A DNA stretch of 64,000 nt, taken from contig SUVR01000004.1 in the NCBI GenBank assembly GCA_015061915.1, forward strand, positions 62,001-126,000. The letters are read 5' to 3'. The DNA is from Lentisphaerota bacterium. GTDB taxonomy: Bacteria; Verrucomicrobiota; Lentisphaeria; Victivallales; UBA1829. Both the position numbers and the translations under genes were made by a program. The notes beneath the pieces are model-generated. The model was not told the origin of the DNA and made no database searches. It worked only from the letters and a program-made list of their open reading frames with translations. This document shows positions 26,198 to 62,115 of the stretch, in pieces; position 1 is the first letter of the stretch, and the number at the start of each line of letters is the position of its first letter.

Positions 26198-26354
26198 GGA
26201 CGGCAGCCGGCTCCGGCGCGGCAGCCGTGAGTGCCGGAAAAAATCGGTTGCGATTTTTTCCGCACTCACGGGTTCTGCCCGGCAGAACCGGTCAGCGGGG
26301 CGGGTGGCGACCCGCCCGCTGACCGCTGCCGCGCCGGAGTCCGTGCTGCCGTCC
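26198..26354. repeat. Four-way-junction palindromic element A
   Basis: Left outer arm 26198-26225 pairs with right outer arm 26325-26354 (about 28 bp, two bulged bases). The space between is filled completely by three hairpins with no spacer: 26226-26270 (about 20 bp, one bulge), 26271-26289 (8 bp, GGTTCTGC arm) and 26290-26324 (about 15 bp, one bulge). The whole could fold as a cloverleaf or extrude as a cruciform. It lies between lacZ and dgt, carries no T-tract at its end, and has the same plan as element B at 43309. Confidence 0.8.
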
Positions 26355-42602: not shown

Positions 42603-43229
42603 ATGATGAAAGTACTGTCAAAAACCCTGTTTACTGCAGCCGCGATCCTGTTCTGCGCCGGATTCACCGGCTGTAAATGTTGTGCCGATGAAAAAAAAGC
42701 GTGCGACCCCAAAGATGATGCGCAGTGCAACACCTGCAACTGCCCCGTCCTGCTGGTGATCGGAGAAGATGAAGAACAGATCGGCGACTGCACCGTATGC
42801 ACCGTGTGGTGTCAGGAATACACTCCCTGCATGAATGCAGCTGCCGCCTGCCCCGCCATCGCAAAGCATACCTTGAAAGATGCACCTCTGTGCGCAAAAT
42901 GCAAAGATGCCATTATGGCAAACGCTCCCCAGCGGAAAGACTGCGCTGTGTGCGGCAAAGAAGCAAAGCCCTGTGCAGCCTGTACGGATAAACTCCATAA
43001 CAGCAAGGTCAAAGATCTGATGAGCGCCGAGTCTATGAAGGCAAATATGAACTGCAAAGAATGTAAGAAAACCACCGAAGCCGCCGCAAAAGCAAAAGCG
43101 GAAAAAATGAAAAAAGCCGATAATGCAGATGACGACGATGATGTGGTCGTGGTGGAAGAAGTCGATGCCGTGATCGTTCCGGTCCCGGCTCCGGCAGACG
43201 ACACAAAGAAAACCGAAGAAAAAAAGTAA
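42603..43229 (+). CDS. Cysteine-rich lipoprotein, unknown function
   Basis: A 208-residue protein preceded by a near-perfect AAGGAGG site. The signal peptide ends in a lipobox (FTGC, Cys24). The mature part holds about 20 Cys, including six CxxC pairs (42/45, 63/66, 97/100, 113/116, 123/126, 149/152), and ends in an acidic then Pro/Lys tail. No haem (CxxCH) motif is present. It could bind metal or Fe-S clusters, or be heavily disulfide-bonded; I recognise no family. It is divergent from nifU-nifS and closed by the terminator at 43273. Confidence 0.75.
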   Translation: MMKVLSKTLFTAAAILFCAGFTGCKCCADEKKACDPKDDAQCNTCNCPVLLVIGEDEEQIGDCTVCTVWCQEYTPCMNAAAACPAIAKHTLKDAPLCAKCKDAIMANAPQRKDCAVCGKEAKPCAACTDKLHNSKVKDLMSAESMKANMNCKECKKTTEAAAKAKAEKMKKADNADDDDDVVVVEEVDAVIVPVPAPADDTKKTEEKK

Positions 43230-43272: not shown

Positions 43273-43302
43273 ACGGGGGAACTGAAAAGCCCCCGTTTTT
43301 TT
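43273..43302 (+). terminator. Terminator after the Cys-rich lipoprotein gene
   Basis: A 7-bp GC-rich stem (43273-43279 with 43290-43296) followed by a run of T. Confidence 0.8.
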
Positions 43303-43308
43303 GTTTAT

Positions 43309-43459
43309 GCCTCTTCCACCAACGGCGGACGGGGCGGCACGGCGCGCGGTTAAACCGCGCTGCCGCCGTATGCGCAGTTTTCCTGCGCGCATACGGCGGC
43401 GGTTCTGCGCAGAGCGCAGAACCTGCCGTGCCGCCCGCTCCGCCGTTGGTGGAAGAGGC
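43309..43459. repeat. Four-way-junction palindromic element B
   Basis: Outer arms 43309-43343 and 43425-43459 pair over 35 bp with two mismatches. Between them lie three hairpins, with one unpaired base before the second and one after the third: 43344-43360 (7 bp), 43362-43400 (about 14-16 bp) and 43401-43423 (10 bp, arm GGTTCTGCGC). The plan equals that of element A, and the GGTTCTGC arm is shared, although the rest differs. It lies between a terminator and the antiporter promoter, so it is outside both transcripts as predicted. Confidence 0.82.
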
Positions 43460-43605: not shown

Positions 43606-45807
43606 ATGCTGAACTTTCATTTGAGCGTTGTGCAGCAGATCGCGATTCTCGCGCTTCAGCTGGGTGTCATCATTTTTGCCGCAAAGTTTTGCGGTGACTT
43701 TGCAAAAAAACTGAAAATGCCCTCCGTGCTGGGGGAACTGTGTGCCGGTATCATCATCGGTCCCTGCGTGCTTGGCGGTGCCGCTCTTGCGGGCAAACTG
43801 ATCCAGTGGGGCATTCCGCTGGATGCGATCCACCTGGAAAACGGTCTGTTCGGTTTTACGCCGGATGTTGTTGCTCATGGGGTTGATGAAGCTGGAAAAG
43901 AAGCGGCAGTCACTTTGAAAAACATCACGTTCCAAACCTATCATTCTTCCCTTTATGCGCTTGCCACGATCGGCTCCATTCTTCTGCTGTTTATGTCCGG
44001 TCTGGAAACGGACCTGCGGATGTTCTTCCGTTACTCTCTGGTCGGTACGATCGTGGGGATCGGCGGGGTGATCTTCTCCTACTTCTTCGGTGCGGGGATC
44101 GGCGTTTACATGCTGGGACTTTCCTGGATGGATCCGGTTTCAATGTTCCTGGGTATTCTCTGTACGGCGACCAGCGTGGGTATTACCGCGCGTATTCTTT
44201 CTGAAAAGAAGAAAGTGGATACACCGGAAGGTGTGACGATCCTTGCCGCGGCGGTGATCGACGACGTTCTCGGTGTGATCTGCCTCGCTGTTGTTGTCGG
44301 CATTGTCGGTGCCAGCAGTTCCGGAGGCACTCCGGCCTGGGGTGAAATCGGCATCACGGCGGCAAAATGTGTCGGTTTCTGGCTGGTTGCAACTGCGATC
44401 GGTCTGCTTCTCGCCCGTCACATTGCAAAATTCCTCAAGATTTTCAAAAGCCCCATCATCTTTGCCTCTCTCTCCTTCGGTCTGGCACTGATCCTGGCGG
44501 GTATTTTTGAAATGAACCACCTTGCCATGATCATTGGTGCATACGTTATGGGCTTGAGTCTTTCCAAGACGGATATTTCCTTTGCGATCCAGACCGCACT
44601 TGAACCGCTCGCCGCATTCTTTGTGCCCATCTTCTTCGTGGTCATGGGTATGCTGGTGGATATCAGCGTTTTCGCAAAAATGGATGTTCTCAAGATCGGT
44701 GCGGTCTATGCTCTGCTGGCGATCATTGCCAAAGTTCTCGGCTGTGCGCTGCCGGCTCTGTTCATGAACTTCAACACCATCGGTTCCCTGCGTATCGGGT
44801 GCGGTATGATCCCCCGTGGTGAAGTTGCCCTCATCATTGCCGGTATCGGTATGACAATGGGGATCCTGGACAGCAATGTCTTCGGTATTGCGATCATCAT
44901 GACGCTGGCGACCACGCTCTTTGCGCCGCCCCTGCTCTCCTTCACCCTCAGTGTCGGCGGCAAAGGCACCCGCAAGGATGAAAAAGATATGTCGGTGGTT
45001 CACACCTCCTTCCCCTTCCCCTCTGTCATGGTTACGGACTTTGTACTTCGTCGCCTCATTGAAAATCTGGAATCGGAAGGGTACATGCTTTCCCATCTGG
45101 ACAAAGATTCCGGCGTGCTTCAGATCCGCAAGGACAACCTCTCCTTTGCTCTGACCAAGAGTCCGAAGGAATTTGTGTTTGAATCCAACCCGGACGAAGT
45201 CCCGTTCATCCGTGCCATCATGTTTGAATCCATCGTGGCACTGCATCAGGATCTGGAAGGTCTGAAGAAACTGGCGAATCCGGAAGAGATCCGCAAGGAT
45301 TACTTTGACGCTTCCGCTGAAGTCTTTGCGCCGGAAAACAGCAAGCAGATCCGCACTATGATCGAAAAAGGACTCTGCCTCAACAGCATCATCATGGATC
45401 TGAAAGCAAACACCAAGGAAGCAGTCATCAAAGAAATGATCTGCCGCCTCGCCGGCAATGGTCTGCTTCTGGATAAAGATCTCTGCGAAAAAGATGTTCT
45501 GGAACGGGAAGCGATCGTTTCCACCTGCTTCCAGAACGGGATCGCCCTGCCCCACGGCAGAACGGACGGGGTCAAGGAACTGGTCGCGGCTGTCGGTATC
45601 AACCGGAACGGTTACAATTTTGATGCCATTGACGGCAAGCCCTCCAAGATCTTTGTGATGTGCCTCAGCCCGAAAAACTCGGATGGTCCCCACATCGAAT
45701 TTGTGGCAACGGTCGGCTCCGTGCTGGCAAAACAGGAAAACATTGACAGTATTCTTTCTGCCGAAACGCCGGAAGAAGTCTTTGCGATCCTGGACATCAA
45801 AAAGTAA
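43606..45807 (+). CDS. Cation:proton antiporter (CPA2) fused to a PTS EIIA domain
   Basis: A 733-residue fusion. Residues about 1-455 form 12-13 membrane segments of the Na+(K+)/H+ exchanger type (CPA2, KefB-like). A soluble linker of about 100 residues follows. Residues about 585-733 match a fructose/nitrogen-type PTS EIIA domain with the phospho-acceptor His650 in ALPHGRTDG. Phosphorylation by a PTS relay may gate ion exchange; this is inferred from the fusion. No PTS EI or HPr gene is in the window. AAAGGAAAG precedes the start. Confidence 0.88.
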   Translation: MLNFHLSVVQQIAILALQLGVIIFAAKFCGDFAKKLKMPSVLGELCAGIIIGPCVLGGAALAGKLIQWGIPLDAIHLENGLFGFTPDVVAHGVDEAGKEAAVTLKNITFQTYHSSLYALATIGSILLLFMSGLETDLRMFFRYSLVGTIVGIGGVIFSYFFGAGIGVYMLGLSWMDPVSMFLGILCTATSVGITARILSEKKKVDTPEGVTILAAAVIDDVLGVICLAVVVGIVGASSSGGTPAWGEIGITAAKCVGFWLVATAIGLLLARHIAKFLKIFKSPIIFASLSFGLALILAGIFEMNHLAMIIGAYVMGLSLSKTDISFAIQTALEPLAAFFVPIFFVVMGMLVDISVFAKMDVLKIGAVYALLAIIAKVLGCALPALFMNFNTIGSLRIGCGMIPRGEVALIIAGIGMTMGILDSNVFGIAIIMTLATTLFAPPLLSFTLSVGGKGTRKDEKDMSVVHTSFPFPSVMVTDFVLRRLIENLESEGYMLSHLDKDSGVLQIRKDNLSFALTKSPKEFVFESNPDEVPFIRAIMFESIVALHQDLEGLKKLANPEEIRKDYFDASAEVFAPENSKQIRTMIEKGLCLNSIIMDLKANTKEAVIKEMICRLAGNGLLLDKDLCEKDVLEREAIVSTCFQNGIALPHGRTDGVKELVAAVGINRNGYNFDAIDGKPSKIFVMCLSPKNSDGPHIEFVATVGSVLAKQENIDSILSAETPEEVFAILDIKK

Positions 45808-61875: not shown

Positions 61876-62115
61876 TTACTTCGCAGCTTCGTTCTTCTGC
61901 AGGACACCAGCTTCCAGAAGCTTGTCGATCAGCTGCTGCATGCTGTTGAAGGCGGAGAGGAAGCCCTGCGGGGGCATGATGATGCGGACGTTGGCTTCCG
62001 GAACCGGAGCTTTGCCTTCTTCTTCCGGCTGGAGGGTCACGAAGTCATAGCGGACCATGCCGCCTGCGAAGTGGATCTGACCGATACCATCTGCAAAAAT
62101 TTCTTTCTTTTCCAT
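61876..62115 (-). CDS. Tandem mini-gene copy 3 (79 residues), unknown function
   Basis: It differs from copies 2 and 4 in protein only at residue 2 (Glu for Ala). Several silent differences separate it from copy 4, so the duplication is not brand-new and the protein sequence has been held constant. The spacer before it (62116-62173) is nearly identical to the spacer before copy 4. Confidence 0.8.
   Translation of the reverse strand: MEKKEIFADGIGQIHFAGGMVRYDFVTLQPEEEGKAPVPEANVRIIMPPQGFLSAFNSMQQLIDKLLEAGVLQKNEAAK

Follow-up and report, generated by a model that had tools for sequence, protein, structure and literature searches.

REPs are 20–40 bp long, conserved in sequence and marked by a GTAG or CGTC tag. 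The usual form of a bidirectional intrinsic terminator is one hairpin between an A-run and a T-run, and fungal double-hairpin elements are GC-rich palindromic sequences that undergo rapid change, merger and shuffling. According to the part of PMC3733652 that deals with their placement, REPs are extragenic palindromes dispersed behind genes, in gaps whose flanking open reading frames are unidirectional or convergent; yeast mitochondrial GC clusters are presented, in the pertinent part of PMC4478555, as GC-rich palindromes subject to rapid sequence change, merger and shuffling. Here we describe a family of palindromes represented by two elements, A and B, in a 64,000-nucleotide window (the whole stretch analyzed, positions 62,001 to 126,000 of contig SUVR01000004.1) from the genome of an uncultured Lentisphaeria bacterium of the gut. 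Like REP, BIME and REPIN sequences, its members are dispersed extragenic palindromes in unidirectional and convergent gaps and not in divergent ones, but they are about 120–200 bp long, four-way and without shared sequence: GTAG or CGTC occurs within 14 nt of an end in 1/43 elements, and in place of the many near-identical copies of a conserved repeat that characterize REPs, BLASTN found no second sequence copy of A or B in their own 2.49-Mb genome. Many of them, though not element B, recall bidirectional intrinsic terminators in their GC-rich hairpins and T-runs for both strands between convergent genes, yet here two hairpins face each other, their T-runs pair into a third one and an outer stem surrounds them all. 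Yeast mitochondrial GC clusters are also GC-rich palindromes with drift and shuffling; unlike the present elements, whose positions are conserved between species, they are organellar, shorter (GC42 has 42 nt) and mobile as judged by polymorphism. MITEs and insertion sequence ends resemble the family in being non-coding and intergenic with terminal inverted repeats, but the listed outer stems have no common terminus, only words in common, A and B lack near-identical copies, and no obvious target duplication was seen by eye in the flanks of element B.

The earlier note on this window had described element B as an outer stem of 35 bp with two mismatches that encloses exactly three abutting hairpins, and our mapping of arms and hairpins bears this out (Table 1). 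The outer arms, of 35 nt each, are 94% complementary, their two mismatches lying side by side in a 2×2 internal loop, and the only spacers are a single T between hairpins 1 and 2 and another 3′ of hairpin 3. The RNA fold of element B (−142.4 kcal/mol, compared to −72.4 for dinucleotide shuffles; z = −17.2, equaled by 0/200 shuffles) is far beyond chance, and with DNA parameters the z score against dinucleotide shuffles is −16.4. Element A follows the same plan (z = −15.5). The two do share the GGTTCTGC hairpin arm, as had been reported, which by itself is weak evidence because a hairpin-arm 8-mer is common to 57/378 element pairs. A BLASTN search with element B in 41 genomes (its own and 40 relatives) returned, besides itself, chance-level matches only, and the whole window has 0 Rfam matches at the gathering score. 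The gene downstream of element B appears, from a reading of its translation, to encode a sodium/proton-antiporter-like membrane protein. Between the upstream gene and element B lies a separate terminator-like hairpin, detected by our own finder and missed by a terminator scan with a loop limit of 8.

Table 1. Coordinates, in the window, of elements A and B and of the features next to element B
Feature	Coordinates	Strand	Remarks
Element A	26198–26354	.	same plan as B; outer stem 26198–26225 / 26325–26354
Hairpins of element A	26226–26270, 26271–26289, 26290–26324	.	three inside the outer stem
Gene upstream of element B	42603–43229	+	stop 80 nt before element B
Separate intrinsic terminator-like hairpin and T-run	43273–43302	+	between upstream gene and element B; loop 10
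Element B, outer stem 5′ arm	43309–43343	.	35 nt
Element B, hairpin 1	43344–43360	.	7 bp
Element B, hairpin 2	43362–43400	.	16 bp; central, longest
Element B, hairpin 3	43401–43423	.	10 bp; GGTTCTGC arm
Element B, outer stem 3′ arm	43425–43459	.	33/35 positions paired
Gene downstream of element B	43606–45807	+	733 aa; start 147 nt past element B

Scanning the window and 14 sampled stretches for fold energy revealed more regions with the same plan and different letters. After further sampling, a structural parser picked out 3-hairpin elements from 707 kb of this genome and none from 329 kb of relatives. A first covariance model, derived from a single pair of orthologs and giving sequence very little weight (effective number 0.36), matched 32/32 chosen loci with scores of 22.8 to 150 bits on the better strand. 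When the 32 loci are aligned on both strands (64 rows), 96% of cells are paired compared to 50% after shuffling, with both-sided changes at 67/67 modeled pairs. The refined model R2 detected 21 elements in 707,469 bp of the same genome and nothing further up to E = 1; since its training elements were taken from there, a match was built in for most of the 21, and L080:5784 is the new one. Extrapolation gives an estimate of about 74 elements for the whole genome. R2 also found 4 elements in 205 kb of a second species of the genus (G001), a sample partly picked for its ortholog content, and none in 456 kb sampled from other genera, where ~13 would be expected at the density of the first genome. 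Genome-wide searches returned matches in 2/36 genomes of the family, both from this genus, and in 1/288 genomes of the phylum sample, namely the same genome; such searches undercount elements, as only limited first-look candidates are scored (≤87 per genome in the family and 10 per genome in the phylum). In the phylum search, the 10 scored candidates of this genome gave 10 matches at 9 places. The structure-based scan proposed in the earlier note thus uncovers further elements in the same genus and none in the other genera sampled, near-identical sequence copies of A or B being absent, and the suggestion of a dispersed family of junction-forming elements with one architecture and different sequences is strongly supported by both the 21 elements in 707 kb and the covariation at all modeled pairs. 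The one invariant of this family is the fold of its DNA, in which the outer stem encloses exactly three hairpins and a four-way junction results. Repeat finders seek shared letters and hence miss a family that keeps its shape while its letters drift; this one was picked up immediately by a covariance model carrying next to no sequence information. A literature search that left subscription journals mostly outside its reach returned no description of such a family. An assembly artefact is unlikely since two separate assemblies hold corresponding elements with paired differences. Several contigs of G001 stop inside or near elements (the ends of L170 and L182 and the start of G001:C228); long palindromes therefore probably break short-read assembly, and elements are probably undercounted in this fragmented genome.

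The elements start close behind stop codons. With genes predicted by our simple codon-usage script, the 27 oriented elements of the first genome divide into 15 in convergent, 12 in tandem and 0 in divergent gaps; of the 158 sampled gaps longer than 150 bp, 57 are divergent, 74 tandem and 27 convergent. The orientation count omits L081:12710, located in a doubtful predicted gene, the unparsed L189 and L226, and a spurious structure at L081:2626. The latter belongs to a long intergenic stretch (L081:2626–2969) of stacked terminator-like hairpins that has a different plan and no model match. Twelve of the 77 convergent gene pairs in the sample hold an element. The placement between genes read in the same direction, pointed out earlier for A and B, is correct for these two and does not extend to the family; an association with the 3′ ends of genes and with intrinsic terminators, unforeseen in that account, fits better.

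In 17/28 elements, hairpin 2 has a T-run at its 5′ foot and an A-run at its 3′ foot. Judged from sequence, hairpin 1 and this T-run together resemble a terminator for the forward direction, and hairpin 3 with the T-run of the opposite strand resembles one for the reverse direction. Among 32 gene ends facing an element, a hairpin with a T-run is found inside the element in 19 cases, before the element in 6 and nowhere in 7, compared to 55/511 other gene ends with such a signal within 110 nt, an unmatched control that includes operon-internal ends. The reverse-strand T-run is also retained in elements between tandem genes, with no convergent gene there to require it. We consider that the explanation with about an even chance of being right is that of genus-restricted, REP-like dispersed palindromes, most copies of which would serve as compound bidirectional terminators and whose pairing would be kept in DNA. 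Hairpin 1 and the T-run at the foot of hairpin 2 would stop one RNA polymerase, while the opposing polymerase would be stopped by hairpin 3, read on the other strand, and the T-run that the opposite arm of hairpin 2 supplies behind it; the two facing T-runs, being complementary, would themselves build the central hairpin. If so, the family would show convergent genes sharing one compact terminator built of two facing ones. The paired T- and A-runs thus account for the third, central hairpin and leave the outer stem unexplained, and termination alone is insufficient for the latter because a transcript stopping after hairpin 1 would not form it.

The T-run layout is absent from the remaining 11/28 elements, 4/28 having no A/T run of 5 at all. 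Element B is one of these: such a run, present in most other family members, is lacking throughout its length, hairpin 2 included. Since element B and others do without this layout, and since in six cases, B included, a separate terminator-like site stands between the element and a neighboring gene, the fold appears to have a role or a persistence beyond termination. By its fold element B is a member of the family, but it is probably not itself a terminator, and for this reason we keep in view, as a less likely reading, a class of chromosomal elements defined by DNA shape alone, four-way-junction palindromes that would be maintained at ~70 places by arm-to-arm copying and selection on the extruded fold, on top of which termination would have been built.

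Comparison of the two species bears on the history of the family, which rests on these two representatives of the genus. Where both flanks could be compared, an element occupies the corresponding locus in both species in 10/11 cases. The exception is L085:15065–15280, whose G001 counterpart L131 is without such an element; it is not a clean empty site, as L131 contains about 170 bp more of other DNA, and none was found between the two species. At this site, on the minus strand of L131 (about 1070–1515), the intergenic region is longer and holds several terminator-like hairpins together with repeated GCGGCACGGG-type units. In one-sided comparisons, L081 and L048 reach an element at a contig end, and for L053 the G001 side, with a single anchor, has no element in the next 600 nt. 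Within the family, the 57 pairs with hairpin-arm 8-mers in common compare to a shuffled mean of 10.9 (maximum 18), and 59 pairs share inner outer-stem 8-mers compared to 8.9 after shuffling (maximum 17); these shuffles preserve base composition only, hence dinucleotide bias may give part of the excess. CGGAGC stands at a hairpin foot in 12/34 elements, compared to at most 7 in shuffles, and the commonest outer-stem 6-mer, in 11/34 elements, is within the shuffle maximum of 12. The GGTTCTGC arm of A and B is one such shared word. We take these words as a sign of common descent, followed by heavy drift and a degree of reshuffling, and those of arms and outer stems suggest an ancient dispersal.

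The same data can be read as the trace of non-autonomous mobile palindromes, REP/BIME- or MITE-like, mobilized by a hairpin-reading transposase and left after genes only since insertions into promoters and genes were purged. The dispersal within one genus only, the words common to unlinked elements and the case of L052 and L089, whose outer stems are nearly identical and whose hairpins differ, are all compatible with this, as is the preference of published REPs for unidirectional and convergent gaps in the section of PMC3733652 cited above. We nevertheless regard it as unlikely: the genome has no near-identical copies of A and B, no shared terminal sequence, recurrent tag or clean empty site was seen, and sites are kept between species. 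Recent mobility in particular is disfavored because sites are conserved and copies are absent; the mobility envisaged in the earlier note therefore has no support for recent times and finds an echo only in the ancient dispersal that the shared words suggest. Under the explanation that we prefer, dispersed palindromes mostly acting as compound terminators, the stem lineage of this Lentisphaeria genus would be where the family arose and spread, after which it would largely have stayed put, its sequences drifting, complementary arms changing together and tips sometimes flipping.

The four-way junction being the sole invariant, the elements could also be cruciform sites for a junction protein, or gyrase or nucleoid sites absorbing supercoils between converging genes, which would agree with the favored convergent gaps and with a DNA fold as exceptional as the RNA fold; with 12/27 oriented elements in non-convergent positions, we judge this to be rather improbable.

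How pairing is kept while letters change was assessed mainly from orthologs, to which we give more weight because the covariation alignment was fitted to the structure and has both strands. In ten ortholog pairs, with both folds considered, 513 pairs are unchanged, 19 show double changes and 14 have single mismatches, 205 shifted and 37 gapped pairs being left out of the count. All 19 double changes are Watson-Crick and 9 are transversions. L046 and L119 further differ by a symmetric two-base difference in both arms. Divergence between species affects 8.1% of aligned sites in stems, 33% in loops and junctions, a figure inflated by inverted or replaced tips, and 13.9% in flanks. Between species, hairpin 1 of L041 matches exactly when inverted (score 32 vs 20). 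The inverted comparison is also closer than the direct one for hairpin 2 of L041, hairpin 3 of L087 and hairpin 2 of L046/L119. A conserved tip orientation is thereby ruled out for at least 4 hairpins; these inversions are DNA events at inverted repeats. Over 2,867 pairs in 43 elements, single mismatches comprise 18 GT, 17 AC and 17 others, and a count in tandem elements read in the direction of their genes gives 5 GT and 4 AC, so that the G-U preference expected from RNA wobble tolerance, which we looked for among these mismatches, is absent. Because of this absence and of the tips inverted between species, we infer that pairing is kept at the level of DNA; together with the low divergence of stems, these observations point to maintenance in DNA plus purifying selection on stems. 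Selection on a hairpin or cruciform, arm-to-arm copying during repair or replication, or both, would be the means.

Arm-to-arm copying might even suffice, the palindromes perpetuating themselves by template switching as a mutational by-product with no selected role. The double changes, the symmetric indel, the tip inversions and an ordinary spectrum of single mismatches with transition types in excess are what such a process would leave, but stems four times less diverged than loops are not predicted by arm copying alone, and both the constant number of exactly three hairpins and the strict placement after stop codons speak against it, which makes this reading quite improbable. Finally, a structured RNA, either a 3′ UTR or a small RNA whose cloverleaf would be selected, for example, against exonucleases, is very improbable in spite of the location right behind stop codons and the very stable RNA folds of A and B, since a selected RNA helix would favor G-U and the mismatches are symmetric, tip inversions and transversion double changes bypass wobble, and the window has no Rfam match.

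Returning to palindromes whose pairing is kept in DNA, loss of SbcCD as the reason for their survival was rejected on the strength of sbcD, which is present above the curated cut-off in both species. Dozens of independent palindromes and a second species amount to a natural experiment on how long palindromes stay complementary despite an intact sbcD, and this experiment also bears on whether cruciforms form in living cells. Two variant elements, L221:394–528 in G001 and L046:13829–14033, have a T-rich stem in hairpin 1, which suggests that the arms of elements can swap places or be replaced.
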